From positions 1 to 32,053 of IMG/VR virus record IMGVR_UViG_3300044591_001208: a DNA stretch of 32,053 bases; one strand, written 5' to 3'. Below are positions 1 to 15,480 of this stretch, piece after piece. The notes beneath the pieces were generated by a model. The model was not told the origin of the DNA, did no database searches, and saw only the letters and a list, made by a program, of their open reading frames with translations. This stretch comes from a virus. Every line of letters starts with the position of its first letter. The first letter of the stretch is position 1. A program made the translations under genes and the position numbers.

Positions 1-150
1 ACCCTTCCGCAGCTTCACCGAGCGCACGCCGACGGTGAAGTCGCGGTCGATGTGGCCGTGCTCGACCAGCCACCGGGCGAACGGCCGCAGCTTCGTGAGC
101 TTCGACTTCGCAGTGTTCGGCTGTTCGACGTGCGGTGCGAGCCATGCCTC
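1..150. repeat. Terminal direct repeat, left copy (circular overlap)
   Basis: Bases 1-150 match 31904-32053 with one mismatch, A at 112 against G at 32015. The difference is synonymous in the integrase (ACT or ACC for Thr). The overlap shows the molecule closes as a circle or was circularly permuted. It is not a physical repeat flanked by different genes. Confidence 0.9.
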
Positions 151-360
151 GACGTCGCCGCGGTTCACGTCGCGCAATGCGGTGCCGTGGCAGTGGCGGG
201 CGAAGGTGCGAAGCGTCGCCCGGATCACTTCGCAGCTCGATGGTGCGAGCTCGCCGGTGGCCCGGCGCTCGCCGATGTAGGCGTCGATCAGTTTCCGCAC
301 AGCAACCCCCGTCGCGTCCTCGGATTGATCGACCGCTCGAAGCATCGGTTTAGGACTCAT
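1..360 (-). CDS. int: Tyrosine integrase, N-terminal part (residues 1-120)
   Basis: This is the start of the integrase gene that crosses the window junction; the rest is at 31361-32053. Reading leftward from the ATG at 358-360 it encodes residues 1-120: a basic, helical SAM-like core-binding domain (LIDAYIGERRATGE, TFARHCHG, KSKLTKLRPFARWLVEHG). The ATG overlaps the repressor stop codon in an ATGA arrangement, so translation is probably coupled to the repressor and int is probably read from the repressor promoter. A second in-frame ATG lies at 342-344. No integrase promoter is evident between the two genes. Integration at attP (381-420) would cut int away from the repressor promoter. Confidence 0.9.
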   Translation of the reverse strand, partial: MSPKPMLRAVDQSEDATGVAVRKLIDAYIGERRATGELAPSSCEVIRATLRTFARHCHGTALRDVNRGDVEAWLAPHVEQPNTAKSKLTKLRPFARWLVEHGHIDRDFTVGVRSVKLRKG

Positions 361-686
361 GCCGCGACCTGCACCGATGCGTAATCCGCAGGTTCTGGGT
401 TCGAGTCCCAGGGGGCGCACACCGAGACGACGCCGGCTCCTTCGGGGCCGGCGTCGTCGCCGTTTTGGTCGCCGAGCAGCCATGCCTCGGACACGCCGGT
501 GACCTGCGCCCAGGCAGTGATGGCGTAGCGGCGCGGTTGGATGGCGCCGGTCTCCCAGTTCGTGACGGTGTTTTTGTGGACGCCGAGCACCTCGGCCATC
601 TGGCGGGTGGTGAGCTTGGCGACGTCGCGCCGAGCCTTGGCTAGCCGGTCGCCCAGAGTCCACGTCGGGATGATGGTGGATGTCAT
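357..686 (-). CDS. rep: XRE-family immunity repressor with attP inside its 3' end
   Basis: This is a 109-aa DNA-binding repressor expected to hold the lytic promoters off. An HTH_3/XRE domain spans roughly residues 7-70 (LGDRLAKARR, TTRQMAEVLGVHKNTVTNWE, then PRRYAITAWAQVTGVSEAWLLGD). The ATG at 684-686 is chosen because the conserved domain starts soon after; ATG 704 and TTG 710 are in-frame alternatives. The last 20 or so residues are translated from the antisense of a tRNA 3' half (the attP core, 381-420), and the protein ends -SVQVAA, an ssrA-like tail. Integration would replace residues from about 102 onward. The stop codon overlaps the int ATG. This matches the repressors of integration-dependent immunity systems; proteolytic control is inferred. 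Confidence 0.9.
   Translation of the reverse strand: MTSTIIPTWTLGDRLAKARRDVAKLTTRQMAEVLGVHKNTVTNWETGAIQPRRYAITAWAQVTGVSEAWLLGDQNGDDAGPEGAGVVSVCAPWDSNPEPADYASVQVAA
381..420 (+). other. attP: attP core: tRNA 3' half
   Basis: The + strand folds as the 3' half of a tRNA. U36-A37-A38 lie at 382-384, the anticodon-stem strand TCCGC at 385-389 and the five-base variable loop at 390-394. The T-stem CTGGG (395-399) pairs with CCCAG (407-411) around the loop TTCGAGT, followed by the acceptor strand GGGGCGC (412-418) and discriminator A419. No 5' half is present, so this is an attachment site and not a tRNA gene. Position 36 is U, so the host tRNA reads an ANN codon. If identity extends further left the anticodon would be CGU (Thr); if it starts at 382, Lys is possible. 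Int lies immediately to the left, as expected for attP. Confidence 0.85.
426..466 (+). terminator. Terminator-like hairpin directly after the attP tRNA end
   Basis: A perfect 12-bp stem, GACGACGCCGGC (426-437) with GCCGGCGTCGTC (447-458), has a short loop containing CTTCGG and is followed by GCCGTTTT (459-466). It begins 6 bases after the tRNA acceptor end, on the tRNA sense strand, and lies antisense within the repressor gene. After integration the rebuilt host tRNA would be followed by this phage-supplied hairpin. The T-run is short, so termination strength is uncertain. Confidence 0.55.
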
Positions 687-699
687 GCCACGAGCATGC

Positions 700-817
700 G
701 CCATAACCAAAGCTTTGGCAACACCCGAGACTATGACAGTAGCAAAACGATTAGATATTCGTTGTGCTATGGCCTAATGATTGACCGGACGCTCGCCGCT
801 GTGCCAATCATTGGGCC
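700..817. promoter_or_regulatory. Divergent repressor/early promoter region with operators
   Basis: This AT-richer stretch separates the leftward repressor from the rightward early operon. It holds a perfect palindrome CCAAAGCTTTGG (707-718) near the repressor start and an inverted repeat TAGCAAAACGA (740-750) / TCGTTGTGCTA (759-769) matching at 10 of 11 positions. It also holds AATGATTG (776-783) against CAATCATT (805-812), the latter within the palindrome CCAATCATTGG (804-814). A rightward promoter fits -35 TTGACC (781-786) and -10 AATCAT (806-811) with a 19-base spacer, placing transcription start near the ATG at 818. The operators would then cover both boxes. No leftward promoter could be assigned with confidence. 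Confidence 0.6.
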
Positions 818-1006
818 ATGGCACAACCGCTCGACCTGATTCCGTCCCGGGAGGTCGCCCGCCGACTCGGCGTGGACGTCTCCACCGTCGCGAAGTGGGC
901 GCGCGACGGCAAGCTCCGGCCCGCCTACGAACACGACGGGCTGCGCGGCGTGCGCCTGTTCCACATCGCCGACGTCGAGCGCTTCGTGTCCGAGCGTGCG
1001 TCGTGA
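818..1006 (+). CDS. Excisionase/Cro-like MerR-type HTH protein
   Basis: This 62-aa protein is essentially one helix-turn-helix_17 domain: LIPSREVARRLGVDVSTVAKWARDG followed by a wing (GVRLFHIADVERFVSERAS). Such proteins act as phage excisionases or small Cro-like regulators. As the first rightward gene, divergent from the repressor, it occupies the Cro position, and no other Xis candidate is visible. No Shine-Dalgarno sequence precedes the ATG; the upstream palindrome and -10-like box suggest a leaderless mRNA. Xis versus Cro cannot be decided from the sequence. Confidence 0.75.
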   Translation: MAQPLDLIPSREVARRLGVDVSTVAKWARDGKLRPAYEHDGLRGVRLFHIADVERFVSERAS

Positions 1007-1251
1007 ACCCCGAGCTGTGGGCTAACGAAGACGCCGCAGCGCTGGTCGTCGCCCGCAAGGTCCTCGACGGCGACACCAGCGCCGTCGCCTACGGCCGCGG
1101 TGGCGCCTACCGGGTCGCTGCGGTCGCGGTCGAGCTCGACCGTCACCCGTCCGGCGTGCGGCGCGTCGCCCCGCCGGTCGTGTGCTCGTTCCACCAAGAG
1201 CAGTGGCTGCGCATCTGCTGCCTGCTCGGACAGCTGAGGAGCATGGCATGA
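1003..1251 (+). CDS. Small early protein of unknown function
   Basis: This 82-aa protein is not recognised. It starts with GTG overlapping the previous stop (GTGA) and ends by overlapping the next ATG. The N-terminal half is Ala/Val-rich; the C-terminal half contains two adjacent cysteines (ICCLLGQ) and a VCSFHQEQW segment. There is no clear signal peptide or membrane span. Its place as second gene of the early operon suggests a regulatory or host-interaction role, but this is only context. Confidence 0.6.
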   Translation: MNPELWANEDAAALVVARKVLDGDTSAVAYGRGGAYRVAAVAVELDRHPSGVRRVAPPVVCSFHQEQWLRICCLLGQLRSMA

Positions 1252-1460
1252 AGGACTACACGGTCCGCCGCAGCGGCGAAGACCTGTTCGTCACCCGCTA
1301 CGACCGGGACACAGACCAGTACGTCGACGTCGGTTCGTCCGACCCGCACGAGGTGCTGAACCCGTCCGGCGTCCCGATCGCCTACGGGATGTCGTGGCGC
1401 ACGGCCCGCAAGGTCGCCGATGCGTTGAACGCGGTGCGCGACAACGGGTGGCTGTCATGA
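1248..1460 (+). CDS. Small early protein of unknown function
   Basis: This 70-aa protein begins at the ATG that overlaps the upstream stop (ATGA). It is polar, with a predicted beta-rich N-terminus (MKDYTVRRSGEDLFVTRYD) and an amphipathic C-terminal helix (SWRTARKVADALNAVRDNG). It resembles small soluble actinophage proteins in style, but no family is recognised. It is translationally coupled on both sides. Confidence 0.6.
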   Translation: MKDYTVRRSGEDLFVTRYDRDTDQYVDVGSSDPHEVLNPSGVPIAYGMSWRTARKVADALNAVRDNGWLS

Positions 1461-1642
1461 CGCTGTCCGGCTTCCAGGCGTTGTGCGTGCTGGCTGTCAT
1501 GTGCGCGCTGTTCCTCCGGTTCGGTTGCGTGCGCGAGACCTCCCCGCACCGCAGGCACGGTTGCGGGTCGCAGGGCGAAGGCACCGGGGTTCCCGGCCCC
1601 GGTGCCTGCCGCCCCTGTCAGGACTGCGAGGACGTCCGATGA
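1457..1642 (+). CDS. Small cysteine-rich membrane protein
   Basis: This 61-aa protein has one hydrophobic segment near the N-terminus (residues about 5-22, FQALCVLAVMCALFLRFG), then a His/Gly/Cys-rich tail with a final CRPCQDCEDVR that could bind metal. The ATG overlaps the previous stop codon. Its function is unknown; the tail with CxxC-like spacing resembles a minimal zinc knuckle on a membrane anchor. Confidence 0.5.
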   Translation: MTLSGFQALCVLAVMCALFLRFGCVRETSPHRRHGCGSQGEGTGVPGPGACRPCQDCEDVR

Positions 1643-1863
1643 TCCCGTTCATCGCCGGGCTGTTCGCCGGCACGTTCGCCGGCGTCGCGCTCGTCGCGTT
1701 CGGCCGGGCCGGTCACCAGTGCGACTGCCAGGTCCCGACGCTCGGCCGCGGCACGTGGCTTGTGGTCATCGACGAGCACGGCGAGCTGGCGAAGTGCCAG
1801 CCGCACGTGTGCATCGACGAGGCGTTCAAGCGGCTCGGCAAGTCGATGGGCGACGAGTCGTGA
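1639..1863 (+). CDS. Small single-span membrane protein
   Basis: This 74-aa protein has an N-terminal hydrophobic, glycine-rich span (residues 2-22, IPFIAGLFAGTFAGVALVAF) followed by a soluble part with four cysteines (CDC and CQPHVC). It overlaps its neighbours by 4 bp on each side, so it belongs to the same translationally coupled early operon. No family is recognised. Together with the preceding gene it forms a pair of small membrane/cysteine proteins. Confidence 0.55.
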   Translation: MIPFIAGLFAGTFAGVALVAFGRAGHQCDCQVPTLGRGTWLVVIDEHGELAKCQPHVCIDEAFKRLGKSMGDES

Positions 1864-3041
1864 AGCTCGGTTCGCTGTGCACCGGCATCGGCGGACTCGA
1901 CCTCGCCGTCGAAGAGTTCTTCGGCGCCGAGCTGGCGTGGTGCGCCGAGATCGACGGCGCAGCGTCACGCGTGCTCGAGGCGCGATTCCCCGGTGCGCCC
2001 AACATCGGCAACTTCGTCGGCGCGGCTCCTGAGCCGGTCGACGTGCTGTGCGGCGGGTTCCCCTGCCAACCGGTATCCACGGCCGGCAGGCGCGCCGGCG
2101 TCGACGACGAACGGTGGCTGTTCGATGACATCTGCGACCTTGTTGGCCGAATGGAGCCACGACCCCGCTGGCTTGTGTTCGAGAACGTGCGTGGGCTGCT
2201 CTCTGCAAACGACGGGGACGCTATGGCCCGAGTCGTTCACGGACTGGCCCGACTCGGCTACGTGGGATCGTGGCGGACTGTTCGAGCTTCCGACGTCGGA
2301 GCACCGCACCGACGAGAACGGGTGTTCATCGTTGCGCACCTTGCCAACGCCCCGAGCTTCGGACGGTGGGAACGAGAACGGCCACGGACGAACGTGGTCG
2401 ACAACGGACTTCAACCTGCACTCGTGGGCTCGCCAACAGTTCGCGTTACTGCCGACGCCCTCTGCCTCGATGCCGAACGACGGAGAGCCGGCCGAGCAAT
2501 GGCTGGCCCGCTACGAGAAGCACGCGACGAAGACCGAGGGCGCGACGAGGGCAGGCATGCCTCTCGGCATAGCGGTGCAGCTTCTGCCAACGCCGACGAC
2601 ACAGGACGCGGCGAACTGTGCGGGACCGTCGCAGCTCGAACGCAACAGCTTGCCGCTGAACACGGTCGTGGCGCTCTTGCCGACGCCGACGGCGTGGCTG
2701 GGGCGCCGGGAATCGCACTCGACCGGCGACCCGGAACGGTGGACGAACCCGGAACGGTCGAACGAACTGTCGGACTGCGTCGCGTGGATTTCGGCACTTA
2801 CGCCGAAGCAGTCGCCCGATGGGCTGATCTCCTGGGTCGAGCCGCCCCTGCACCTGTCGACGACCGACGACGACTGAACCCGGCGTTCGTCGAGTGGATG
2901 ATGGGCTTCCCGGCCGGGTGGTGCACCGACATCCTCGACCGTCGCACCGACGCGTTGCGCTGCCTCGGCAACGCCGTCGTGCCGCAGCAGGCCATGCACG
3001 CACTGTCGCTGCTCGTGCGGGAGCCGTGTGGAGTCGGTTGA
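1860..3041 (+). CDS. DNA (cytosine-5) methyltransferase
   Basis: This 393-aa protein, starting at GTG in a 4-bp overlap, should transfer a methyl group from S-adenosylmethionine to cytosine C5, probably protecting phage DNA from restriction. Motif I is LCTGIGGLDLA (6-16), the catalytic motif IV is GGFPCQP with Cys69, motif VI is FENV (107-110) and motif VIII is PHRRERVF (149-156). The C-terminal motifs are NPAFVEWMMGFPAGW and LGNAVVP. The region of roughly residues 140-338 is odd: codon third positions favour the +1 frame there (see 2125-2877), and the sequence is Arg/Ala-rich with repeated ANAD/ADAD patches. This is where the target-recognition region should be. Confidence 0.88.
   Translation: MKLGSLCTGIGGLDLAVEEFFGAELAWCAEIDGAASRVLEARFPGAPNIGNFVGAAPEPVDVLCGGFPCQPVSTAGRRAGVDDERWLFDDICDLVGRMEPRPRWLVFENVRGLLSANDGDAMARVVHGLARLGYVGSWRTVRASDVGAPHRRERVFIVAHLANAPSFGRWERERPRTNVVDNGLQPALVGSPTVRVTADALCLDAERRRAGRAMAGPLREARDEDRGRDEGRHASRHSGAASANADDTGRGELCGTVAARTQQLAAEHGRGALADADGVAGAPGIALDRRPGTVDEPGTVERTVGLRRVDFGTYAEAVARWADLLGRAAPAPVDDRRRLNPAFVEWMMGFPAGWCTDILDRRTDALRCLGNAVVPQQAMHALSLLVREPCGVG
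2125..2877 (+). CDS. Possible overprinted ORF with four LPTP repeats inside the methyltransferase
   Basis: The +1 frame is open from 1993 to 2877; an ATG at 2125 gives 250 aa. Between about 2270 and 2870 this frame has strongly GC-ending codons, whereas the methyltransferase frame has many A/T-ending ones. The product carries four LPTP motifs (LPTPRAS, LPTPSAS, LPTPTTQ, LPTPTAW) and patches such as WPDSATWDRGGLFELP that, from memory and unchecked, recur in phage ORFs at C5-methyltransferase loci. It stops exactly where the methyltransferase frame regains normal codon bias. It could be an overlapping gene, or a decaying target-recognition segment read by frameshifting. Confidence 0.4.
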   Translation: MTSATLLAEWSHDPAGLCSRTCVGCSLQTTGTLWPESFTDWPDSATWDRGGLFELPTSEHRTDENGCSSLRTLPTPRASDGGNENGHGRTWSTTDFNLHSWARQQFALLPTPSASMPNDGEPAEQWLARYEKHATKTEGATRAGMPLGIAVQLLPTPTTQDAANCAGPSQLERNSLPLNTVVALLPTPTAWLGRRESHSTGDPERWTNPERSNELSDCVAWISALTPKQSPDGLISWVEPPLHLSTTDDD

Positions 3042-3315
3042 CCTCGAGCAGCTCGACCGTCCGCAACTGCTGGCGAGGTTCCGCACAGCGGACCCGGTGA
3101 CACGCCGGGCGATTCAGCGCCGGCTGCAACAACTCGACGAACAACCGGCGCCACCACCCGCGCGAAAGGCACCACCGATGCAGGAATCGCAGTTCAGGGA
3201 TTCCGTGCGTCGGTTGCTGCCTCCCACGACGCGTGCGTGGTGGTCGCTCGCACAGATCGCAGAGACCCTCGACCGGAGCACGGCCGAGTGGAACGAAACG
3301 AAGGGGAAGAAGTGA
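3028..3315 (+). CDS. Small helical protein of unknown function
   Basis: This 95-aa protein starts at a GTG that overlaps the methyltransferase end by 14 bases. The N-terminal 40 residues look like a charged helix pair (LEQLDRPQLLARFRTADPVTRRAIQRRLQQLDE), followed by a Pro/Ala linker. A C-terminal segment (RRLLPPTTRAWWSLAQIAETLDRSTAEW) resembles part of a winged-helix. It is directly followed by another winged-helix-like protein in a 4-bp overlap, so the two may act together. No family is recognised. Confidence 0.6.
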   Translation: MESVDLEQLDRPQLLARFRTADPVTRRAIQRRLQQLDEQPAPPPARKAPPMQESQFRDSVRRLLPPTTRAWWSLAQIAETLDRSTAEWNETKGKK

Positions 3316-3626
3316 ACGAACAGCTAACGCTCACCGCTGCGCCCCGCACCCGCCACGATGACCCGTCAACGAGCGTTGACGCGGCCGGGCGGGTCGCGAA
3401 GGGCAGCGACGAACTGGAACGCACCATCGCCGAGGTGGTGGCGTGGCACACACGCCCGGTGGTCGCGGAGGACATCGCACGGGCGATCCTTCGCAGAACC
3501 GACCGGTGGACCGCGCCGACGATCGTGTCCGCCGTGACCCGTGCCCGGAAGCGTGGGTTGATCGTCCCCGCCGGCACCGGCGTGACGTCGCGTGGCAGCA
3601 ACGCCACGGCCTACAAGGCGGCCTGA
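3312..3626 (+). CDS. Winged-helix DNA-binding protein
   Basis: This 104-aa protein starts at GTG 3312 in a GTGA overlap. After a polar N-terminus with a DPSTSVDAA patch seen in phage winged-helix proteins, residues about 40-100 look like a winged helix: ELERTIAEVVAWHTRPVVAEDIARAIL, RWTAPTIVSAVTRARKRGLIVPAG and a basic wing. A DNA-binding regulatory or replication-associated role is inferred from the fold only. Confidence 0.65.
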   Translation: MNEQLTLTAAPRTRHDDPSTSVDAAGRVAKGSDELERTIAEVVAWHTRPVVAEDIARAILRRTDRWTAPTIVSAVTRARKRGLIVPAGTGVTSRGSNATAYKAA

Positions 3627-3627
3627 C

Positions 3628-4104
3628 GTGGACCAGCTCCGACTCATCGCCGTCGGGCAGGAGCAGCTGACGTCGGACGACTACTACACGCCGAAAGACG
3701 TGTTTGACCGTCTGGCCATTGAGTTCGACATCGACGTGTGTGCCCCTCCGGGTGGCATCCCGTGGATACCAGCAAAGCGCTTCTTCACACAGGAAGACGA
3801 CGGGCTGTCGCAACCGTGGACCGGTCGGGTGTGGATGAACCCGCCGTACTCCAACCCGACGCCGTGGGTTCGCAAGTTCATCCGCCACGGCAACGGCATC
3901 GCACTGGTGCCGCACGCCAAGAGTCAATGGCACATCGAGCTATGGGCTGCTGCTGCTGCTGCTGCTGCTGTACCGCCTCGTTACAGCAACTTCATCGGAG
4001 GTTCGATATTCATGCCCGTTTGGTTCGCAGCGTTCGGCGACGAGTGCGTCGAAGCGCTGTCACGTATCGGTGTTGTGCGCGTCCTGCCTGGGGCTGCGTC
4101 ATGA
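3628..4104 (+). CDS. Phage Dam-type DNA N6-adenine methyltransferase
   Basis: This 158-aa protein, starting at GTG 3628, resembles the phage DNA N-6-adenine-methyltransferase family (PF05869). It has an early DDYYTPKDVFDRL segment, FDIDVCAPP, a FFTQEDDGL...W segment and the catalytic NPPYSNP motif. It would methylate adenine in phage DNA, complementing the cytosine methylase upstream, most likely against host restriction. Residues about 107-114 are eight alanines encoded by eight consecutive GCT codons (3946-3969), a microsatellite in the C-terminal half. It ends in a 4-bp overlap with the next gene. Confidence 0.85.
   Translation: MDQLRLIAVGQEQLTSDDYYTPKDVFDRLAIEFDIDVCAPPGGIPWIPAKRFFTQEDDGLSQPWTGRVWMNPPYSNPTPWVRKFIRHGNGIALVPHAKSQWHIELWAAAAAAAAVPPRYSNFIGGSIFMPVWFAAFGDECVEALSRIGVVRVLPGAAS
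3946..3969 (+). repeat. (GCT)8 trinucleotide repeat
   Basis: Eight GCT codons in a row encode Ala8 within the adenine methyltransferase. Slippage would change length by whole codons and keep the frame. GCT is otherwise an infrequent Ala codon here, where GCC and GCG dominate, so the tract stands out from its surroundings. Confidence 0.95.
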
Positions 4105-4295
4105 ACACCTGGCAGGAAGACGCACAAACGCTGCTCGACAACCTCACAGCCGCTCACACGGCCGCCGTGGAGTCGACGGACGACAAGGACCAGCGGGTGC
4201 ACCTGGAGCTGGCGCAGGACGCCGCCGCACGCCTCGCCTGGGTGCTTGAGCTGGCGTTGATGGACAGCACGATCTGGGCGGGTGAGTCGTGGTGA
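4101..4295 (+). CDS. Small acidic helical protein
   Basis: This 64-aa protein starts at an ATG overlapping the previous stop. It is largely alpha-helical and acidic (WQEDAQTLLDNLTAAHTAAVE, HLELAQDAAARLAWVLELALMD), with no cysteines and no membrane span. No family is recognised. It is coupled to the next gene through a GTGA overlap. Confidence 0.6.
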   Translation: MNTWQEDAQTLLDNLTAAHTAAVESTDDKDQRVHLELAQDAAARLAWVLELALMDSTIWAGESW

Positions 4296-4555
4296 GCGAA
4301 CTGTCCCGCATCAATTACGGCACGACCAGCACTTACCGGAAGGCGCATCGCATGAAGCGGTGCAAGGACTGCGGCGGGTTCGTCCGCTGGTGCGAGAAGC
4401 CGAACGGCTGGCACGTGAAGCTCGACTGGCATCCGTCGTCCACGGGCCGGTGGCGGGTCAACGACAAGGGGCTGGCCGAGGAGTTGCCGCCCGCCTACGC
4501 CGGCGGGCACGGCATGTACGACCGGCACGTCTGCCCGGAGGTGCCCCGTGGCTGA
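4292..4555 (+). CDS. Small zinc-ribbon-like protein
   Basis: This protein of about 87 aa could start at GTG 4292 (GTGA overlap) or GTG 4289. An internal CKDCGGFVRWCEKPNGWHVKLDWH segment has the CxxC, aromatic and His spacing of a degenerate zinc ribbon, and another His/Cys pair occurs near the end (DRHVC). Similar small zinc-ribbon proteins are common in actinophage early operons. The precise role is unknown. It overlaps the ERF gene by 8 bases. Confidence 0.6.
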   Translation: MSELSRINYGTTSTYRKAHRMKRCKDCGGFVRWCEKPNGWHVKLDWHPSSTGRWRVNDKGLAEELPPAYAGGHGMYDRHVCPEVPRG

Positions 4556-5186
4556 CGACTCGCTCGTGGCGGCGCTCGCACGGGCACAGGCCGCTTTCCC
4601 GAAGATCGGCAAGGCGCACGAGAACAGCCACTTCCGTAGCAAGTACGCCGACATTGCCGACGTGCTCGACGCTGTCCGCCCGGTGCTCGCCGCCGAGGGC
4701 ATCGCCGTGTCCCAACCGACCCGTGTCACCGAACACGGCGTCGAGCTCCTGACGGTGCTCATGAAAGGCACCGAGCGCATGGAGTCGAGCTTTCCCATGC
4801 CGGCGAACCTGAAGCCTCAGGACACCCTCGCATGGTCCACGTATCTGCGTCGCGGTCAGTTGTGCTCGATGCTCGGCATCCACCCGTCCGGCGAGGACGA
4901 CGACGGGAACACGGCGCAGGCCGCCCAGGCGCCGGCACGCAAGAAGATCCCGGCGAAGGTCACCGAGGACCGCACGCCCCGCAACACGGACGCACCGATG
5001 CCGGACGGCGAAGCGTTGTCGTTCGACCAGCTCGTGCAGATCAACGAGCACTGGAACACGTACACGGACGCGGACGTGCGCAAGGCCCGCAAACGGGAGT
5101 TCGCCGCACGGTTCGGCGACCCGAAGACAGCGACGGTCGACCAGTGGCCCGCCATCGAGGCGTTCATGGCGGAGGCTCCGTTTTGA
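4548..5186 (+). CDS. erf: ERF-family single-strand annealing recombinase
   Basis: This 212-aa protein shows the ERF signature: LARAQAAFPKIGKAHENSHF, RSKYADIADVLDAVRPVLAAEGIAV, then PMPANLKPQDTLAWSTYLRRGQLCSMLGI and DDDGNTA. ERF proteins form rings that anneal complementary single strands and help circularise or recombine phage DNA. The conserved domain covers residues 1-125; the tail is polar and Lys/Pro-rich, followed by a helical C-terminus. The start is GTG 4548. An HNH nuclease gene follows in a 4-bp overlap, so the pair may act together in recombination. No RecT or Redβ-type protein is present. Confidence 0.88.
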   Translation: MADDSLVAALARAQAAFPKIGKAHENSHFRSKYADIADVLDAVRPVLAAEGIAVSQPTRVTEHGVELLTVLMKGTERMESSFPMPANLKPQDTLAWSTYLRRGQLCSMLGIHPSGEDDDGNTAQAAQAPARKKIPAKVTEDRTPRNTDAPMPDGEALSFDQLVQINEHWNTYTDADVRKARKREFAARFGDPKTATVDQWPAIEAFMAEAPF

Positions 5187-5605
5187 GTCGCCAGGTGACC
5201 CCGATCCCGAAGAAGAAGACGCCGAAGCGCGGCCAGTCGGCCGCCAGCTTGAAGCGCAAGGCGACGACCCTGCACAGCATGGTGGTGCGGGCCCGTGCCG
5301 GCTACGCGTGCGAACGCTGCGGGACCGTCGACGGGCAGCTGCAGTGCGCGCACATCGTCTCCCGGCGTTACACGGCGACGCGCTGCGATCCGTTCAACGC
5401 CTGGTGCCTGTGCGCAGCGTGCCATCGCCGTCTGACCGAGCACCCCGACGAGCACGTCCAGTTCGCCTACGCCACCCGAGGCGAAGCCGGTTACGCGGCG
5501 CTGAGGGCGTGCGCGTACGCCGGGCGGGGCCAAGTGATGTCGGCGGCGTTCTGGCGGCAACAGGTCGACAGCCTGTCCGCCGAGCTGACGAGGTTGACCC
5601 GATGA
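5183..5605 (+). CDS. HNH-type nuclease / NinG-like recombination protein
   Basis: This 140-aa protein starts at TTG 5183, supported by GGAGG at 5171-5175 seven bases upstream; GTG 5195 is an alternative. A basic N-terminus (PKKKTPKRG) precedes the zinc/HNH core: YACERCG, then CAHIVSRRY, WCLCAACHRRLTEHP. The CxxC...CAH...CxxCH pattern fits the HNH fold, as in small phage recombination endonucleases. Lying directly after ERF suggests a role in recombination or DNA processing. Confidence 0.75.
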   Translation: MSRQVTPIPKKKTPKRGQSAASLKRKATTLHSMVVRARAGYACERCGTVDGQLQCAHIVSRRYTATRCDPFNAWCLCAACHRRLTEHPDEHVQFAYATRGEAGYAALRACAYAGRGQVMSAAFWRQQVDSLSAELTRLTR

Positions 5606-6207
5606 GGGAACACGGGACACGTTCCGCGTACAACCACGGCATCAACCCCGGCGAACGAGGTTGCCGGTGCGACGCCTGCTGCGAAGCGAACCGGGCGTAC
5701 GAACGGATGCGCTCCAAACGCGACATCCGTATCCGTAAAGGCCAAGCCGCACCCCGGTTCATCGACGCCGGCGAAGCACGCCGGCACCTGCTGTGGCTCC
5801 ACGACCAAGGCGTCGGTGCACGCACCGTCGCAAGCATCCTCGGCTGCAACGTCAAAACCGTCCAAGAGATCCGTGACGGCGTGACGCGCCGCACCCGCCC
5901 GAATCGTGCCGCTGCGATCCTCGCCGTAGGCACGCACCGCCGCCCCGAAGGGTCCCTTGTCGACGCAGCAGCGACATGGGAACGGATCGACGAGCTCGTC
6001 ACACGTGGCTGGACGCGCGGCGAACTGGCGGTGCTGCTCGGATCGACGTCGAAAACGCCGGCGTTGCAACTCGGCCGGGACAAGGTCACCGAAGGCAACG
6101 CCCGGAAGGTCCGTGACCTGTACGACCGGCTGATGGCCGACGTGGTCGCGCAACGCGAACAGGTCAGGGACCGGCAGCGGGCGCATCGGGCGAGGAGCGC
6201 AGCGTGA
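5602..6207 (+). CDS. HTH protein with N-terminal CRCxxC module
   Basis: This 201-aa protein starts at ATG 5602, overlapping the HNH stop. Residues 4-30 form a small cysteine module (HGTRSAYNHG, then GCRCDACCEANRAY; Cys21, 23, 26, 27), seen in many actinophage DNA-binding proteins. Residues about 55-95 form a first HTH (LWLHDQGVGARTVASILGCN, VKTVQEIRDG), and residues 125-175 look like a second HTH-type region (WERIDELVTRGWTRGELAVLLG). A sequence-specific regulator is likely. The same cysteine module is found at the C-terminus of the WhiB protein 0.7 kb downstream. Confidence 0.7.
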   Translation: MREHGTRSAYNHGINPGERGCRCDACCEANRAYERMRSKRDIRIRKGQAAPRFIDAGEARRHLLWLHDQGVGARTVASILGCNVKTVQEIRDGVTRRTRPNRAAAILAVGTHRRPEGSLVDAAATWERIDELVTRGWTRGELAVLLGSTSKTPALQLGRDKVTEGNARKVRDLYDRLMADVVAQREQVRDRQRAHRARSAA

Positions 6208-6344
6208 GGCTTCCCGCACCGTCCCCGGAGCTCCTCGAGCACGAAGCCCGCCAGCTGGAACTGCACGACGCCTACGCCGCCGCCGTGATGCGCAAGTGCG
6301 CGCAGGCGTGGCGCCAAGAACGAAAGGACCGCACCGATGGGTGA
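6204..6344 (+). CDS. Very small helical protein
   Basis: This 46-aa ORF starts at GTG 6204 (GTGA overlap) and overlaps the WhiB start by 8 bases, filling an otherwise empty slot in the operon. The sequence is one amphipathic helix (SPELLEHEARQLELHDAYAAAV, split over two parts, then MRKCAQAWRQERKDR). Spacing and frame continuity support it as a gene; its function is unknown. Confidence 0.5.
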   Translation: MRLPAPSPELLEHEARQLELHDAYAAAVMRKCAQAWRQERKDRTDG

Positions 6345-6873
6345 GCTGATGTCCGCCGGGGGCCGTGCCCGCAAGGGCGGCACCATGACCCTCGAGGAGT
6401 GGCGGCGCCAACCGGACTACACGCCGCCGGCGCCGTCACGAGGCACCCGCACCGCCGCCGAACCGGTCGAAACGCTGCCGGATTGGCGCGACCAGGCTCT
6501 GTGCCGCATCGACAAGAAGCCCACAAGCTACTTCTTCCCCGCCGAAGGCGACCAGTACGCACGCATCCGCATCCCGGCGTACTGCCGGCGCTGCGAAGTC
6601 GCCGAAGAGTGCGCCGTGTGGGCGATCGCCGAAGGCATTCCGTGGGGCTGGTTCGGTGGCCTGTCACCGCAGCAGCGCGCCAACCGTGCGCAACCCACGA
6701 TCATCAACACGTCCCGTCCGCCACGCCAGCACGGGTTCCAGCGCTACCGGTTCGGCCCGTGGGGCAAAGAACCTCGCAACGGTTGCCGTTGCGGCACGTG
6801 CACTGCCGCCGCCAAGGAGCGGTGGGCGGCAGAAACGGCACGGGGAGCGAAACGCACCGGGGCGACCCGATGA
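6337..6873 (+). CDS. whiB: WhiB-family transcription factor with C-terminal CRCxxC module
   Basis: This 178-aa protein has a WhiB domain at residues 48-110: Asp49-Trp50 and ALC with Cys56, then YCRRC (Cys83, Cys86) and EEC (Cys92), the four ligands of a [4Fe-4S] cluster. The turn reads GWFGGLSPQQR, with Phe where most family members have Trp (G[VI]WGG). Phage WhiB proteins modulate sigma-factor-dependent host transcription. A C-terminal extension (132-165) repeats the HG...Y...GCRCGTC pattern of the HTH protein at 5602. ATG 6337 has GAAAGGA just upstream; later in-frame Met5 and Met17 are less likely starts. Confidence 0.88.
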   Translation: MGELMSAGGRARKGGTMTLEEWRRQPDYTPPAPSRGTRTAAEPVETLPDWRDQALCRIDKKPTSYFFPAEGDQYARIRIPAYCRRCEVAEECAVWAIAEGIPWGWFGGLSPQQRANRAQPTIINTSRPPRQHGFQRYRFGPWGKEPRNGCRCGTCTAAAKERWAAETARGAKRTGATR

Positions 6874-7283
6874 CCCTGGAGCGGCGGGACGACGTTTACC
6901 CGCTGGCATCGTTCCCGGAGGAATACCGAGAAGCGATCGCCCGCGCTGTCGCCGCTCCAACCCCGCCAGAGAAATGGCTGCACCTGGGGCCGTTCTTGCC
7001 GGACGGAAGATGGACGGCGGCCATCCCGAGTCGCGCTTGGTACGAGTGGCACTGGGCGCGAGGCATTGACCCTGACGCCAAGCGTGAACGGCTTAATCCG
7101 TGGTTGCGAGTTCAGGTCATCGAACGTGACGGCTATGTCTGTGGGCTGTGCGGCGACGACGTCGACCCGGACGATGTCCACATTGACCACATCATGCCCT
7201 GGTCGCGCGGTGGCAAGCATGAGCTGTCGAACCTGCAAGTCGCACACTCGACGTGCAACCTGCGCAAAGGGAATCGCGTCTGA
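6870..7283 (+). CDS. HNH endonuclease
   Basis: This 137-aa protein has a complete C-terminal HNH motif: RDGYVCGLCG, VHIDHIMPWSRGG, LSNLQVAHSTCNLRKGNR. The first 60 residues are helical and of unknown function. It could be a homing-type or recombination nuclease. It overlaps WhiB by 4 bp and is followed directly (TGATG) by the replication-type protein. It is one of three HNH-type proteins in this genome, an unusually high number for 32 kb. Confidence 0.85.
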   Translation: MTLERRDDVYPLASFPEEYREAIARAVAAPTPPEKWLHLGPFLPDGRWTAAIPSRAWYEWHWARGIDPDAKRERLNPWLRVQVIERDGYVCGLCGDDVDPDDVHIDHIMPWSRGGKHELSNLQVAHSTCNLRKGNRV

Positions 7284-7819
7284 TGGCCCGGAACTACGCG
7301 CAGGTCCGGTGCAACATCTGGCACGACCCGGACTTCGCTGCGCTGTCCCCAGGCGCGCAACGCATGTACCTGCTGATCCTGTCGCAGCCGAAGCTGTCGA
7401 TCTGCGGCGTCGTCGACTACCTGCCCGAGCGCTGGGCAAGGCTTGGTCGCGGCATGACCGCCGGCGACGTCGAACACCTCGTCTGCGAGCTCGCAGCGGC
7501 CCGGTTCGTGCTCCTCGACCTCGACCACGCAGAAGTGGCGGTGCGGTCGTTCGTGAAACACGACGGGTTCGCCGGCCGCTGGCAGATGGTGTCTGCCATG
7601 TGGGCTGCGTGGGAAGCCGTGTCGTCACCGGCGCTGAAAGAAGCGCTGGTCAGGGAGATGCCCGACGAGGTGTGGTCGCACGACAAGGCAAAGGCACCGG
7701 CAATGGCAATGGCTATCCGATTGGCAATCGCTGACCCTATGCCAACACCTGCACCTACACCTGCACATGCACCTGGCGCTCCGATCGACTTCGGCACACT
7801 CAGGGCGGCGCTCCGATGA
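7283..7819 (+). CDS. Replication-initiation-type winged-helix protein (DnaD/replisome-organiser-like)
   Basis: This 178-aa protein begins MARNYAQVRCNIWHDPDFAALSP, the pattern of phage replisome-organiser N-termini (a winged helix with LSPGAQRMYLLILSQ, GVVDYLPERWARLG). An RFVLLDLDHAEVAVRSFVKHDG segment typical of this group follows. The C-terminus is low complexity, with alternating Pro/Thr/Ala (PTPAPTPAHAPG), probably a linker to a partner such as the host helicase. Start ATG 7283 has AAAGGGA upstream. It is the best replication-initiation candidate here; no phage polymerase, primase or helicase is visible, so replication must use host enzymes. Confidence 0.65.
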   Translation: MARNYAQVRCNIWHDPDFAALSPGAQRMYLLILSQPKLSICGVVDYLPERWARLGRGMTAGDVEHLVCELAAARFVLLDLDHAEVAVRSFVKHDGFAGRWQMVSAMWAAWEAVSSPALKEALVREMPDEVWSHDKAKAPAMAMAIRLAIADPMPTPAPTPAHAPGAPIDFGTLRAALR

Positions 7820-8007
7820 ACGCCTGGCGCGACGAAGCACGCACCGCCGCAGCACGCGACGCCATCGCCGCTGCACGCAACCGGCTCAGGGTCACCATCA
7901 CCAAACACCGGTTCGACCACACCGCCACCTGCGTGCGCTGCAAAGCGAAGCACACCACCACCATCCCCGAGGAGGCGACAGCGTGGGCCGAGACACACGA
8001 GTGCTGA
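7816..8007 (+). CDS. Small zinc-finger-like protein
   Basis: This 63-aa protein starts in an ATGA overlap. A basic N-terminal helix (WRDEARTAAARDAIAAARNR) precedes a FDHTATCVRCKAKHTTTIPEE segment and ends in THEC. The CxxC...H...HxxC spacing could bind zinc. The next gene has a comparable CDCGL...HTCKEKL layout, so the two look like diverged relatives. Confidence 0.55.
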   Translation: MNAWRDEARTAAARDAIAAARNRLRVTITKHRFDHTATCVRCKAKHTTTIPEEATAWAETHEC

Positions 8008-8144
8008 ACCGTGTCGCGATCGTGTGGAAGCGCACGCTGCTCGTCTACGAAGCGACCTGCGACTGCGGCCTCCAGGCGCTGCGCTTCAAGCTGTCCGAAG
8101 CCGAAACGTGGGCGCTTAGCCACACCTGCAAGGAGAAGCTGTGA
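7983..8144 (+). CDS. Small zinc-finger-like protein
   Basis: This 53-aa protein starts at GTG 7983, chosen because GGAGG lies at 7971-7975, seven bases upstream; GTG 8001 is an alternative. The sequence includes YEATCDCGLQALRFKLSEAE and ends SHTCKEKL, again a CxC...HxC layout like the preceding gene. It overlaps that gene by 25 bases. Function unknown. Confidence 0.55.
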   Translation: MGRDTRVLNRVAIVWKRTLLVYEATCDCGLQALRFKLSEAETWALSHTCKEKL

Positions 8145-8440
8145 CCACTCGTTTCGAACGCTGGGAGAACCGGCTGCACGACGCCTACTACGCGTCGCTC
8201 GACGAACCGGACGACGAACCGACCTTGACCGGCCCCGAAATGACCGCACTGGCGTTGTACACCGTCATCAGCATCGTCGACGAAGCCGAACCGGCCGTCG
8301 CGTCGTGGCTGAACACCGCAGACGCACAGTGGCTCGCCGACGAAATCGAAGACGTCGTGAACGACTTGCGCCGGCGGCTCGCCGCCCACGAGCACATGTT
8401 CCGTGTCCGGGCCACCGACATCGTGGAGCGGTTGACGTGA
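8141..8440 (+). CDS. Early protein of unknown function
   Basis: This 99-aa protein starts at GTG 8141 with AAGGAG upstream. It is acidic and helical (ERWENRLHDAYYASLDEPDDEP, split, then LALYTVISIVDEAEPAVASWL and a C-terminal VVNDLRRRLAAHEHMFRVRA). There are no cysteines or membrane spans, and no family is recognised. It is coupled to both neighbours by 4-bp overlaps. Confidence 0.6.
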   Translation: MTTRFERWENRLHDAYYASLDEPDDEPTLTGPEMTALALYTVISIVDEAEPAVASWLNTADAQWLADEIEDVVNDLRRRLAAHEHMFRVRATDIVERLT

Positions 8441-8583
8441 TCGACGACCTGACCGACGCCCGCTGCGCCCGCTGCGGCGACGACACGTGGCTCACCCGGC
8501 TCACCGTCGGCACCGTCGTCTGCGAGTTCTGCTGCGACCCGATCGAGCTCGCCGAGCTGTACCCCGAGGAGACGAAGCGATGA
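8437..8583 (+). CDS. Small zinc-ribbon protein
   Basis: This 48-aa protein starts at GTG 8437 in a GTGA overlap. It contains ARCARCGDDTWLTRL and VVCEFCCDP, two CxxC pairs spaced as a rubredoxin/zinc-ribbon knuckle (C10, C13, then C30, C33 approximately). It probably binds one zinc and acts as a small nucleic-acid or protein adaptor; the target is unknown. Confidence 0.6.
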   Translation: MIDDLTDARCARCGDDTWLTRLTVGTVVCEFCCDPIELAELYPEETKR

Positions 8584-8873
8584 CCGCCCCCCGCTACGTG
8601 GTGTGCGAGATCTATGAAGACGGGGCGTTCGTGCCAAGAAGCGCGGTGCTGCCCGACGCCGAGCAAATCCACCTGACCATCAAGAACGGCACCGTCACCG
8701 CCGTGCCGATGATCGAGATCGACACGCGACAGGCGTATGGCTGTACGCAATACGCCGACGGCTCGGTGAAGTACATCTATGGCGACCTTGTTCACCCGTC
8801 ATGCGACGGTTGCTGGGAACCTGCTGGTTATGAGGTGGCCCTGTGGGTCGACGCCACCGAGGAGAACCGGTGA
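8580..8873 (+). CDS. Early protein of unknown function
   Basis: This 97-aa protein starts at ATG 8580 in an ATGA overlap. It is beta-rich (RYVVCEIYEDGAFVPRSAVL, HLTIKNGTVTAVPMIEID) with a later VHPSCDGCWEPAGYE segment. A compact globular fold is likely, but no family is recognised. Confidence 0.55.
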   Translation: MTAPRYVVCEIYEDGAFVPRSAVLPDAEQIHLTIKNGTVTAVPMIEIDTRQAYGCTQYADGSVKYIYGDLVHPSCDGCWEPAGYEVALWVDATEENR

Positions 8874-9244
8874 CCGCACACAACCACCGCACCCACGTCC
8901 CTGGCTGCTACCGGTGCGAACTGAGCCGAGACGAGATCGAGGCAGCGCGCCGAGACGGCGACGGCGACAACGACTGCTGGTACTGCCTCGGCGAAGGCGA
9001 CTGCGAAGCGTGCACCGAGCGACGCGCCCTACAGGCCGAGGTCGAACGCCTCCGGGCCGAGAACGCCAAACTGCGCGCTGCGGCCACAGAGCTGAACGCC
9101 AGCGAGCTGCTGATCACCCTGCCGGCCGGCGACGGGTTCGCCAAAACAGAACGGTTTGTCGAAGCGGTCAAGGCCGCCATTGCTATCGAGCTCGACGCCA
9201 TCACCCGACGGCTTGACGGGCTTGACGAGGAGACGAACCGATGA
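8870..9244 (+). CDS. Cysteine-rich N-terminus plus coiled-coil protein
   Basis: This 124-aa protein starts at GTG 8870. The N-terminus has CYRCELSRDE and DCWYCLGEGDCEAC, a multi-cysteine (probably zinc) cluster. Residues 50-75 form a heptad-rich coiled coil (LQAEVERLRAENAKLRAAA), and a second helical segment follows. Dimerisation through the coil is likely. The function is unknown, though zinc-plus-coil layouts suit adaptor or transcription-modulating roles. Confidence 0.6.
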   Translation: MTAHNHRTHVPGCYRCELSRDEIEAARRDGDGDNDCWYCLGEGDCEACTERRALQAEVERLRAENAKLRAAATELNASELLITLPAGDGFAKTERFVEAVKAAIAIELDAITRRLDGLDEETNR

Positions 9245-9822
9245 CCATCACCACCCACCTGGCCGCCGGGCGCCTCGAGCAGCAGCTCGACCGTGCCCTC
9301 GCTGACCTGAACGCCGCCAGACGGCTCCTACGGGCCGCCGTTGCCCGCCTCGACGACGCCGAGCCCGGATACCCCGGAGGAGGCACCGGGGGCGGCAGCG
9401 GCGACGACAGCGGCCCTCTGCGCCAGCAGGTCATCCTGAGCGACGAAGCCCTGCGGGACCGTGCACGGCTCGAGCACCTGAGCGCCCAGGCCGAACAGCA
9501 CGCACGAGGACTGCTCGGGCTCTGCCAGACATGGGGCATCCGCCGGGTCGGCGACACCGACCGGGAACCCGACGAACTGTGGTGCCGCTCCTGCCTGCGA
9601 GCCGGGCACATGGCACCCAGGCGCACCAGCAACGGCACCACCCACGGCGAACGGTGCCGCTGGTGCGACGACACCCTCCGGGCCGTCAACGTCGTCCGGC
9701 GCGAATGGTCCAAACAACCGATGGCCGAACTGCCGCTCGTCGCCGTCCGCTGGCACGCCGAAGGCCGGCGCACCACCGCCAAAGACATCGAAGCGTGGGC
9801 ACGGGACAGGGCACGGCGGTGA
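9241..9822 (+). CDS. Last early-operon gene; zinc-binding helical protein
   Basis: This 193-aa protein starts at ATG 9241 in an ATGA overlap. The N-terminal helices (LEQQLDRALADLNAARRLLR) are followed by a Gly/Ser-rich linker (GGGTGGGSGDD) and a second domain with LWCRSCLRAGH...ERCRWCDD, a four-cysteine zinc knuckle, then a basic C-terminus (VRREWSKQ, WARDRARR). The domain style suggests nucleic-acid binding, but no family is recognised. It ends the run of overlapping early genes. Confidence 0.6.
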   Translation: MTITTHLAAGRLEQQLDRALADLNAARRLLRAAVARLDDAEPGYPGGGTGGGSGDDSGPLRQQVILSDEALRDRARLEHLSAQAEQHARGLLGLCQTWGIRRVGDTDREPDELWCRSCLRAGHMAPRRTSNGTTHGERCRWCDDTLRAVNVVRREWSKQPMAELPLVAVRWHAEGRRTTAKDIEAWARDRARR

Positions 9823-9826
9823 CGTG

Positions 9827-9867
9827 TTGACACCGGCACTTGCGGCTGGTACGCGACGTGCTACGGT
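9827..9867 (+). promoter_or_regulatory. Candidate late/structural promoter
   Basis: This gap between the early operon and the packaging genes contains a perfect -35 hexamer TTGACA (9827-9832). A better-spaced pair is TTGCGG (9840-9845) with TGC-TACGGT (-10 at 9862-9867, 16-base spacer, extended TG). Either would drive the HNH and terminase genes. Assignment is by eye only. Confidence 0.35.
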
Positions 9868-9908
9868 ACGCGTTGGCTATCCCGTTCGACGTGCGCCCGG
9901 CGTGCACC

Positions 9909-10175
9909 ATGGGTAGTAGCGCCGGCAGACGCAGCGCCGCCTACGTCCGAGCCCGCCGTGAATTCCAATCCGGCAAATATAAATGCTGGATTGCGTCGGG
10001 CCCGTGGTGCACCGGAGTCGGGACCACGGTCGACCACGACCCACCCCTGTCCGCATTCCCGGCGCCCGAATTGTGGCGCGGCGCATTTCGCCCGGCGTGC
10101 AAACAATGCCAGGACCGGCAAGGCGCCGACATCCGCAACGGCCGCACGCCGCCCGCAAATGCGTGGCAATGGTAA
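9909..10175 (+). CDS. HNH endonuclease adjacent to terminase
   Basis: This 88-aa protein starts at ATG 9909; an upstream TTG at 9840 is unlikely because the candidate promoter overlaps it. HNH features are KCWIASGPWCTG, TTVDHDPPLSAF and FRPACKQCQDRQGA. Small HNH proteins next to terminase, as in HK97, stimulate terminase cutting at cos, which suggests cos-type packaging here. Codons such as AAT, ATT and AAA are much more common than in the early genes, continuing into TerL. No good Shine-Dalgarno is visible. Confidence 0.75.
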   Translation: MGSSAGRRSAAYVRARREFQSGKYKCWIASGPWCTGVGTTVDHDPPLSAFPAPELWRGAFRPACKQCQDRQGADIRNGRTPPANAWQW

Positions 10176-10315
10176 TGCGGCCCGCATTCCACATTGCAAA
10201 TGCGTTTTTTGGGAATGCAAAAATGCGAGAAGAGCCCGCTCTTTTCCATATATATTCGGAATGGAAATGCAATTCCCGACAATTGCATTTCCGTGGAATG
10301 CAATTCGGGGGGCGC
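10176..10315 (+). promoter_or_regulatory. AT-rich palindromic island between HNH and TerS (cos/TerS-binding candidate)
   Basis: This 140-bp non-coding stretch is unusually AT-rich and packed with AATGC/GCATT pentamers. It contains a perfect 12-bp inverted repeat, GGAAATGCAATT (10263-10274) and AATTGCATTTCC (10281-10292), with a 6-base spacer. A second small hairpin, AAGAGC (10230-10235) with GCTCTT (10238-10243) followed by TT, lies upstream, and TTTCCAT (10243-10249) mirrors ATGGAAA (10261-10267). Its place directly before TerS fits a packaging start or TerS recognition site, though a terminator or TerS regulator is possible. Confidence 0.45.
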
Positions 10316-10621
10316 ATGAAGAAGGGCGCCCTTTCCGTTGCGGCGACAAAGGGGCGCCTCGACGGGCTGCGCGCCCTGCGCGACGTGCTCACGGCGCAGA
10401 TCGAGGACCAGGCGACGCCGCCAGCTGCGGTCGCTGCGCTCGCCGGCCGCCTGACGACCGTCCTCGACCAGATCGAGGCGCTCGAGCGGGAGCAGCCGCA
10501 GAAGTCGAGGGTCGATGAGCTCGCGAACCGCCGCAAGACTCGGCGTGCAGGCGCCACGGGTGCTGCTGACGCCCCCGGGGATCGTGTCGACCGCCGGGCA
10601 GGAGGCCGCCGAGCTCGCTGA
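10316..10621 (+). CDS. terS: Terminase small subunit
   Basis: This 101-aa protein starts at ATG 10316. The core (GRLDGLRALRDVLTAQIED, AAVAALAGRLTTVLDQIEAL) is a helical hairpin like the oligomerisation helices of actinophage small terminases; the basic tail (ANRRKTRRAG and beyond) could bind DNA. It should recognise the packaging site and hand it to TerL. It overlaps the TerL frame by 107 bases, longer than the 4-8 base overlaps elsewhere, so its true end or the TerL start may differ slightly. Identification rests on position and helix pattern. Confidence 0.6.
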   Translation: MKKGALSVAATKGRLDGLRALRDVLTAQIEDQATPPAAVAALAGRLTTVLDQIEALEREQPQKSRVDELANRRKTRRAGATGAADAPGDRVDRRAGGRRAR

Positions 10622-11930
10622 GCAGTGCGGCCTGGTGCTCGACCCGTGGCAACGCCACATCGTCGACGTCGCCCTCGGCGAACGGGCCGACAATTCGCTC
10701 GCCGCGCAAACCGTGAAGATCATCTGTTCGAGGCAGAACGGCAAGAATGTCGGCCTCGAAGTTGTGCAATTGCACGACATTGTGTTGGCCGGGGTGTGGT
10801 GGATTCACACTGCGCACCACGGCGTGACGATGCGCGAGTCGTTCAGCCGACTCTTCGGGCTCGTTGAGTCGTGCCGCGAGGTCCGCGACCGGATGACGCT
10901 CAAGTACGCGTCGCCGATGTCGGGCTATGAGATGCAATTCAAGGGCGGCGGGCGAATTCGCTTCATCGCCCGGACCAACAATTCCGGCCGCGGCCTTTCT
11001 GGCGACAAGCTGGCGATCGACGAAGACCAGGACGCCAACGACGCCGCCCTCGGTGCATTGTTGCCGACAATCTCAGCGAATTCCGATTCGGGCAATTCGC
11101 AGGCCTGGTATATCGGCTCGGCTCCGGGCCCTACGTCATTCGTCTCGCATCGGATGCGCCGCCGTGGCCGCAACCCGGCGCCGGGCGACAACCGGTTCGC
11201 CTACTTCGAGTTTTCGGCCGACCCGGCCGCCGACCTCGACGACCGCGACGCCTGGGCGCAAGCGAACCCGCGGCTCGGCCGGGGCATGACCGAGGAGTTC
11301 ATCGAGTCGGAGCGCCAATCGATGTCCGACGAGATGTTCGCCCGGGAGCGGCTGTCGATCTCGCCCGAGCACACCGAGAACAGCGAGCGGGTCTTCGGGC
11401 CCGGTGCGTGGGAGGCGGTGTGCGCGCACGACGTCGCGCAGCCGGCTGCGGGCCTCGTGTTCGCTGTCGACACGAACCCGGAGCGCACCCGCACCGCGAT
11501 CGCGGTGGCGGGTGGCGGCGGCACGTGCGGCCTGGTCGATGAGCGCGACGGCACCGGGTGGGCGTTCGACGAGCTCGTGCGGGTCGCGCGCCAGCACGAC
11601 GCCGCGGTGGCTGTGGCAGCGAAGGGCCCGGCGGCGTCGTTCATCCTTCCGCTCGAGCAGGCAGGCGTGCGGGTGATGCCTGTCGCCGCAGGCGACGTCC
11701 CGATCGCGTGCTCGTGGTTCTTCGATCAGGTGACGGCGCGCAGCATCCTCGTGAAGCGCCACCCGGTGCTCGATGCCGCCGTGACGAACGCTCAGCGCCG
11801 CGGCGCCGGCGAGGCGTGGGTGTGGGACCGACGCAGCGGCGACGTGTGCTCGCTCGTCGCGGTGACCCTCGCCGCGTGGAAGGCGTCCACTGCGGCACCG
11901 CTGGTGGACATGGCAGGGCAGGTGTGGTGA
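10515..11930 (+). CDS. terL: Terminase large subunit
   Basis: This 471-aa packaging ATPase-nuclease starts at ATG 10515. Residues 14-47 (PRVLLTPPG, LDPWQRHIVDVAL) are typical of phage TerL N-termini. Walker A is SRQNGKN (72-78) and Walker B is LAIDEDQD with Asp169/Glu170. A nuclease domain with FAVDTNPERTRTAIAVA and later acidic residues follows. It cuts concatemers and pumps DNA through the portal. Up to about 11110 the codons use many AAT/ATT/CAA; after that, third positions return to G/C, so a recombination junction may lie inside the gene. Confidence 0.9.
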   Translation: MSSRTAARLGVQAPRVLLTPPGIVSTAGQEAAELAEQCGLVLDPWQRHIVDVALGERADNSLAAQTVKIICSRQNGKNVGLEVVQLHDIVLAGVWWIHTAHHGVTMRESFSRLFGLVESCREVRDRMTLKYASPMSGYEMQFKGGGRIRFIARTNNSGRGLSGDKLAIDEDQDANDAALGALLPTISANSDSGNSQAWYIGSAPGPTSFVSHRMRRRGRNPAPGDNRFAYFEFSADPAADLDDRDAWAQANPRLGRGMTEEFIESERQSMSDEMFARERLSISPEHTENSERVFGPGAWEAVCAHDVAQPAAGLVFAVDTNPERTRTAIAVAGGGGTCGLVDERDGTGWAFDELVRVARQHDAAVAVAAKGPAASFILPLEQAGVRVMPVAAGDVPIACSWFFDQVTARSILVKRHPVLDAAVTNAQRRGAGEAWVWDRRSGDVCSLVAVTLAAWKASTAAPLVDMAGQVW

Positions 11931-15436: not shown

Positions 15437-15440
15437 CCCT

Positions 15441-15480
15441 GACGGCCCGCACCCGGAGCGGGTGCGGGCCGTCTCGGTTC
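15441..15480 (+). terminator. Hairpin after capsid gene (partial terminator)
   Basis: A perfect 14-bp stem, GACGGCCCGCACCC (15441-15454) with GGGTGCGGGCCGTC (15460-15473), has a 5-base loop and is followed by TCGGTTC. It starts five bases after the capsid stop codon. The weak T-run suggests partial termination or 3'-end protection of capsid mRNA. Confidence 0.7.

Follow-up and report, generated by a model that had tools for sequence, protein, structure and literature searches.

A candidate integration-dependent immunity cassette, with attP inside the repressor gene, in a phage with probable Acidimicrobiia hosts

Results

Genes and control region of a circular phage contig

The stretch of DNA analyzed here (the window; 32,053 bp) is a circular phage contig of approximately 31,903 bp whose ends overlap by 150 bp, with positions 31904 to 32053 repeating positions 1 to 150 apart from a single mismatch (149/150 identical). 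Terminase, portal, major head, and tape measure genes were among the structural genes recognized by Pfam and PHROG profile matches, and judged by these genes the virus is a long-tailed phage. No full tRNA was found in the window by ARAGORN, and positions 1 to 11000 showed no megablast similarity to any phage record. A 14.5-kb contig from a second metagenome is 99.97% identical to the same phage and does not include the region around attP. Elsewhere in the window, the early region carries a C-5 cytosine methyltransferase gene (1860 to 3041; PF00145), the gap before the terminase gene holds an AT-richer hairpin with a 13-bp stem and a partial repeat, GGAATGCAATTC (10261 to 10294), and a hairpin with a 15-bp stem lies directly past the stop of the major head protein gene (15440 to 15474). 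Toward the end of the virion genes, an open reading frame (29854 to 30690) contains degenerate tandem repeats of about 72/144 bp of the TVTATASVVAGSVTGVTAATISSA type (30021 to 30555).

The repressor gene, rep, occupies positions 357 to 686 on the minus strand and in its viral form encodes 109 amino acids, with an N-terminal XRE-type helix-turn-helix (HTH) at residues 11 to 70 (Pfam HTH_31, E = 1e-9). Its PHROG match is phrog_2328, transcriptional repressor (E = 1e-23), and its start codon, the ATG at 686, is backed by alignment with relatives. The frame reads through positions 420 to 357 and ends -CAPWDSNPEPADYASVQVAA, followed by the TGA at 359 to 357. The integrase gene, int, lies downstream on the same strand, and its ATG (360 to 358) overlaps the rep stop as ATGA. 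A preliminary description of this DNA had proposed an XRE repressor that ends in -SVQVAA and overlaps the int start codon; the frame from 686 to 357, the HTH_31 match, and the ATGA overlap bear this out. The 300-residue int product, a tyrosine recombinase that ends -RPRAA, is encoded from 360 to 1 and then, across the circular join, from 31903 to 31361. Its catalytic domain spans 143 to 282, and no arm-type binding domain was found with Pfam. Most of the best phage matches of int were integrases from phages like Redi and Xeno (cluster N-type; 33 to 35% identity), and int used as bait in the viral contig collection gave no matches.

A putative control region (687 to 817) separates rep from a divergent, plus-strand gene (818 to 1006) for a 62-residue HTH_17/MerR-like protein. 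This gene is Cro/excise-like, and relatives share its divergent orientation to rep; it matches phrog_66, "excisionase and transcriptional regulator," and the same gene in Phayonce is so annotated. Close to the rep start lies a perfect 12-bp palindrome, CCAAAGCTTTGG (707 to 718), and a 24-bp imperfect inverted repeat (761 to 784/804 to 827) extends into the start of the divergent gene. An Rfam search of the region returned chance matches only, one of which revealed the 761 to 827 inverted repeat. The palindromic cores of both repeats are unique in the genome, and the two are candidate operators.

The attP core and its match to tRNA-Lys genes

The attP core (382 to 419, plus strand; TAATCCGCAGGTTCTGGGTTCGAGTCCCAGGGGGCGCA) is the exact 3′ half of a host tRNA-Lys(CTT), from the end of the anticodon loop to the discriminator base, and lies antisense to rep residues ∼90 to 102. 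A perfect antisense tRNA 3′ half within rep had been described at 381 to 420; the match is indeed exact and inside rep, with boundaries at 382 and 419. The core occurs once in the phage, where it adjoins int, and it had no match in the viral contig collection. In a species-level genome collection, the 38-mer was found exactly at 30 loci, all in metagenome-assembled genomes (MAGs) titled Acidimicrobiaceae, Acidimicrobiales, Candidatus Microthrix, or unresolved actinobacteria. Of 24 loci scanned with ARAGORN, 23 gave a tRNA-Lys(CTT) at the core, and L021 alone gave no tRNA. At that locus (L021:5278-5315) a second exact tRNA-Lys core stands without a tRNA in a MAG that also has an intact tRNA-Lys (L029), and this core is probably the end of another integrated element.

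A tRNA-Lys-type 39-mer was present in just 4 of 335 class genomes sampled, and the core is therefore selective; an exact 38-mer match cannot be due to chance. Identity with the hosts begins at position 382, as the anticodon loop reads GCG|TAA in the phage versus CTCT|TAA in the hosts. Because the phage anticodon loop differs, the tRNA type is not evident from attP alone. Together, the tRNA identity and the relatives support Acidimicrobiia (Acidimicrobiales) as the probable host group, and the earlier expectation of a non-mycobacterial host agrees with the match of the core to tRNA-Lys in Acidimicrobiia genomes.

Predicted effect of integration on the repressor

The phage repressor side was joined in silico to the host side at each of the 30 loci, and the chimeras were translated. 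All 30 stop at residue 102, where GAT-TAC-GCA of the phage becomes GAT-TAA: the Tyr102 codon TAC (381 to 383, minus strand) is turned into a TAA stop by the host base that directly follows the core. The predicted prophage repressor has 101 residues and ends -NPEPAD, having lost the viral-only tail of 8 residues, YASVQVAA (360 to 383, minus strand). A prophage repressor of 101 residues that lacks the tag, as suggested beforehand, is thus what the joined sequences predict at 30/30 loci.

The end of the tail, -VAA, resembles an ssrA tag. Both rep (-SVQVAA) and int (-RPRAA) end in -AA, as does just one of ∼38 other checkable predicted genes, and the tmRNA tags that could be read in Acidimicrobiia genomes end in LALAA or LVLAA (8/8). 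Judged from its last residues, -SVQVAA would be a degron.

Two prophage ends fused during assembly might have produced the ATGA-linked frame across the core, given that the contig is metagenomic and has one mismatch in its 150-bp end overlap. We consider this scarcely credible: the rep-core-int join (357 to 420) lies inside the contig, away from the overlap, and the frame continues without a stop across the join to the expected tag. The nearly identical 14.5-kb piece from the second metagenome also argues against it, though it covers another region.

Repressor relatives and a related lysogen

A tblastn search with rep matched 246 phage records. The top matches were Gordonia and Mycobacterium phage proteins annotated as immunity repressors (38 to 45% identity over 92 to 96% of the query). 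In an alignment of eleven repressors, a conserved HTH half is followed by the antisense-tRNA peptide and then by unrelated tails, which end mostly in -AA (-VAA, -SAA, -LAA, -HAA, or -DAA). As judged from these alignments, rep is homologous to the repressors of known integration-dependent immunity systems. The preliminary description had called the repressor unrelated-looking, which does not hold in view of the phrog_2328 match, the identity to Gordonia and Mycobacterium phage repressors, and a junction peptide in common with McGonagall and SallySpecial.

Among metagenomic relatives, phage G407 (L095/L135), whose major capsid protein is 57% identical, arranges rep and int as here, with a different tRNA antisense near the rep end and the tail -GLRLAA. 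The repressor of viral contig L004 ends WDSNPEPSDSEVAA, and an overlapping integrase frame follows. Two further candidates, L002 and L003, were rejected as repressor relatives, as they match only the antisense tRNA peptide, which is ordinary tRNA sequence.

Neither the 29 genomes carrying the tRNA-Lys core nor 395 class genomes yielded a lysogen of this exact phage. Because no repressor-type frame runs into tRNA-Lys at any of the 30 host loci, these are not lysogens at the tRNA-Lys site. The phrog_2328 profile, tried as a probe in 14 host genomes, matched generic XRE proteins and also gave matches in 13/14 controls; owing to this lack of specificity, the repressor alignment was used for the class search. 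It gave one strong match in the 395 genomes (G124 C1:873,696-873,941; E = 8e-25), and the best int match of the class search was on the same contig (835,068-835,895). They lie at opposite ends of a 39-kb prophage (C1:834,936-873,966; L164, L165, L058, L159), with relatives of the terminase and portal genes between them. A short core, AGCGTG, is common to both prophage ends. The lysogen repressor ends ...GGSPTA through a host-supplied GCG-TGA, whereas the rejoined viral repressor ends -WNDDRPGQVLAFRRLAA, its frame reading ...GGSPTAWNDDRPGQVLAFRRLAA (ending -RRLAA). When the host flanks are rejoined, they form a single intact frame of dtd (D-aminoacyl-tRNA deacylase); Pfam independently places the two halves of the split gene, one at each prophage end, at profile positions 1 to 83 and 78 to 144, and there is no second copy in the genome. 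Excision would thus restore the sole dtd of this genome. Read from its two ends, the G124 prophage is a case in nature of the predicted repressor truncation, in the same bacterial class. The dtd site was considered as a new principle, a non-tRNA attB, and dropped, since integration-dependent prophages at non-tRNA sites have already been reported (PMC8092301); it is a new site only. A further repressor (L171; G424 C168), from a genome in the order to which G124 belongs, has the tail -SLKPAA and is followed directly by an integrase, and its linker contains a repeated YxGPERRS motif.

The position of attP within rep, for which a search of relatives had been suggested, recurs in the homologous phages and in the G124 prophage. 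This bears on the possibility that the tRNA half is a leftover or decoy in an ordinary repressor gene, with the real attP elsewhere and immunity independent of integration, as in lambda. Although attL and attR of this phage are in silico predictions, the core is single in the phage and adjoins int, homologous systems have it in the same position, and the natural G124 lysogen recombined within rep, which makes such a decoy very improbable. Nor does the locus have the lambda-type arrangement, in which attP lies outside the repressor gene and the repressor is unchanged by integration.

A different alternative keeps attP in rep and a shorter prophage form and denies that the tail is a degron: the two forms would be equally stable, and any difference between them would lie in oligomerization or promoter activation. 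The layout requires no tag, as attP lies in rep without any ssrA-like tag in some M. abscessus systems (PMC8092301). Here, however, rep ends in -VAA, most relatives end in -AA despite unrelated preceding tails, and the G124 reconstruction ends in -LAA; int ends in -RAA against the single other -AA end among the checkable genes, and the host tags end in -LAA. On this evidence, we regard a tail that is not a degron as unlikely.

A terminator-like hairpin beside attP

A terminator-like hairpin of putative function (426 to 458, plus strand) begins 6 nt past the tRNA 3′ end on the tRNA-sense strand. It consists of GACGACGCCGGCTCC-TTC-GGGGCCGGCGTCGTC, with 14 Watson-Crick pairs, one G-T pair, and a loop of 3, and is followed by GCCGTTTT; its antisense strand encodes the repressor linker (DDAGPEGAG region). 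Stems of 9 to 15 pairs occur 5 to 10 nt past the tRNA end in SallySpecial, McGonagall, Emperor, Coeur, Rahul, Phayonce, Purky, Malithi, Cracklewink, and L135. Their sequences differ, and a short T tract comes after most of them. A similar fold is present in Jambalaya, and in Brujita, L004, BigNuz, and Rabbs the hairpin is weak or absent. Folding z-scores range from −2.7 to −5.8 in those hairpin-bearing phages that were scored, whereas the sequence downstream of the hosts' own tRNA-Lys genes has a median of −0.5. In a synonymous-codon test, the hairpin had a mean z of −2.0 across 18 phages, compared with −0.6 to −1.3 for control stretches of the same genes, under a biased null. Because of this bias, the case for the hairpin rests mainly on position and stem length. 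A genome-wide hairpin scan without G-T pairs missed the hairpin at 426 to 458, and in a simple terminator scan, terminator-like sites were no more numerous than in shuffles. No description of a hairpin beside attP was found in a literature search that did not take in the founding paper (Broussard 2013).

The region beside attP may be coded in three ways: as the repressor linker, as the tRNA-Lys 3′ end on the opposite strand, and as a phage-supplied terminator for the rebuilt tRNA that would spare rep antisense transcription in the lysogen. We give this reading slightly less than even odds; if true, the recurrence of the hairpin in most integration-dependent phages examined would make it an overlooked standard part of these switches. 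It also offers a simple, testable idea of how the repressor and the restored tRNA can share the two strands.

Discussion

The defining features of integration-dependent immunity systems have been described (PMC9934374, PMC9262239), and we estimate a probability of about 0.88 that the locus is such a cassette, with proteolysis, stability, repression, termination, and immunity all predicted from the sequence. In such systems rep and a downstream int form one operon, the tyrosine integrase has no arm-binding domain, and attB usually, though not always, is in a host tRNA gene. In the infecting genome, rep would be read through attP and gain the tail YASVQVAA, whose -VAA end would be recognized by the host protease for ssrA tags (ClpXP-type), so that the viral repressor would not accumulate; the integrase, ending in -RAA, is probably short-lived too. 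Recombination of attP with the host tRNA-Lys(CTT) gene by the integrase would cut rep at the core, and the first host base would change TAC to TAA and yield a stable repressor of 101 residues, which would shut the lytic promoter and confer immunity. The phage part of attP would rebuild the tRNA 3′ end, and the phage-borne hairpin would probably terminate tRNA transcription before it enters rep in the antisense direction. The switch logic put forward in the preliminary description, with attP in rep, is sustained at the level of sequence by the host-supplied stop, the -AA ends of rep and int, the host tags ending -ALAA or -VLAA, and the truncated repressor of the related lysogen.

A close parallel is with Gordonia phages of cluster CW (McGonagall, Jeanie, SallySpecial, and Emperor), which have a homologous repressor (42 to 43% identity). 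The attB of Jeanie and McGonagall lies in tRNA-Lys, and CW phages share a 37-bp attP matching tRNA-Lys (PMC5559632). The junction peptide DSNPEPAD, located before the phage-specific tail, is identical in the window repressor, McGonagall, SallySpecial, and Emperor, and the McGonagall repressor ends ...CAIRDSNPEPADRLLSLVAA. CW tails end in -VAA or -SAA, and the hairpin is located 5 to 7 nt past the tRNA end, as in the window. The CW phages differ in their 15- to 17-kb genomes, their Gordonia hosts, and a gap between int and rep in place of the ATGA overlap.

Similarly, the mycobacteriophages BPs, Brujita, Redi of cluster N, and Phayonce and Purky of cluster P share attP in rep, a host stop at the junction, and a shorter, stable prophage repressor and, as in the window, have -AA on Rep and Int and an excise-like divergent gene. 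In BPs (PMC9262239), as in the window, the stop is completed at its third position by the first base of host DNA; a stop made by that base is also described for several M. abscessus prophages (PMC8092301). The mycobacteriophages use other tRNA genes (Arg in BPs) and other hosts, and BPs loses 33 residues compared to 8 here. A recombination directionality factor is said to be missing from the classic systems, whereas the divergent gene of the window is excise-like (phrog_66). Outside mycobacteria, Bb423phi2 and 689b-1 of Bifidobacterium have a like layout and lose an 18-residue tail with an ssrA-like end on integration (PMC6109161), but they use tRNA-Met, infect a different class, and have small genomes. 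M. abscessus prophages such as MabN, MabO, and MabH, with attP in rep, a junction stop, and a non-tRNA attB, are precedents for the dtd prophage of G124 (PMC8092301), although they are without ssrA-like tags and the G124 reconstruction ends in -LAA.

What is new here is the host class, the dtd site, and the hairpin directly past the tRNA end; the switch itself is already known. From Mycobacterium, Gordonia, and Bifidobacterium it would now extend to phages of Acidimicrobiia, a class with many uncultivated members that is distant from the known hosts. The G124 prophage shows the junction in nature, at a protein-coding attB. The repressor family and the tRNA-Lys solution in common with Gordonia cluster CW support an old, widespread actinobacterial switch rather than a mycobacterial oddity.
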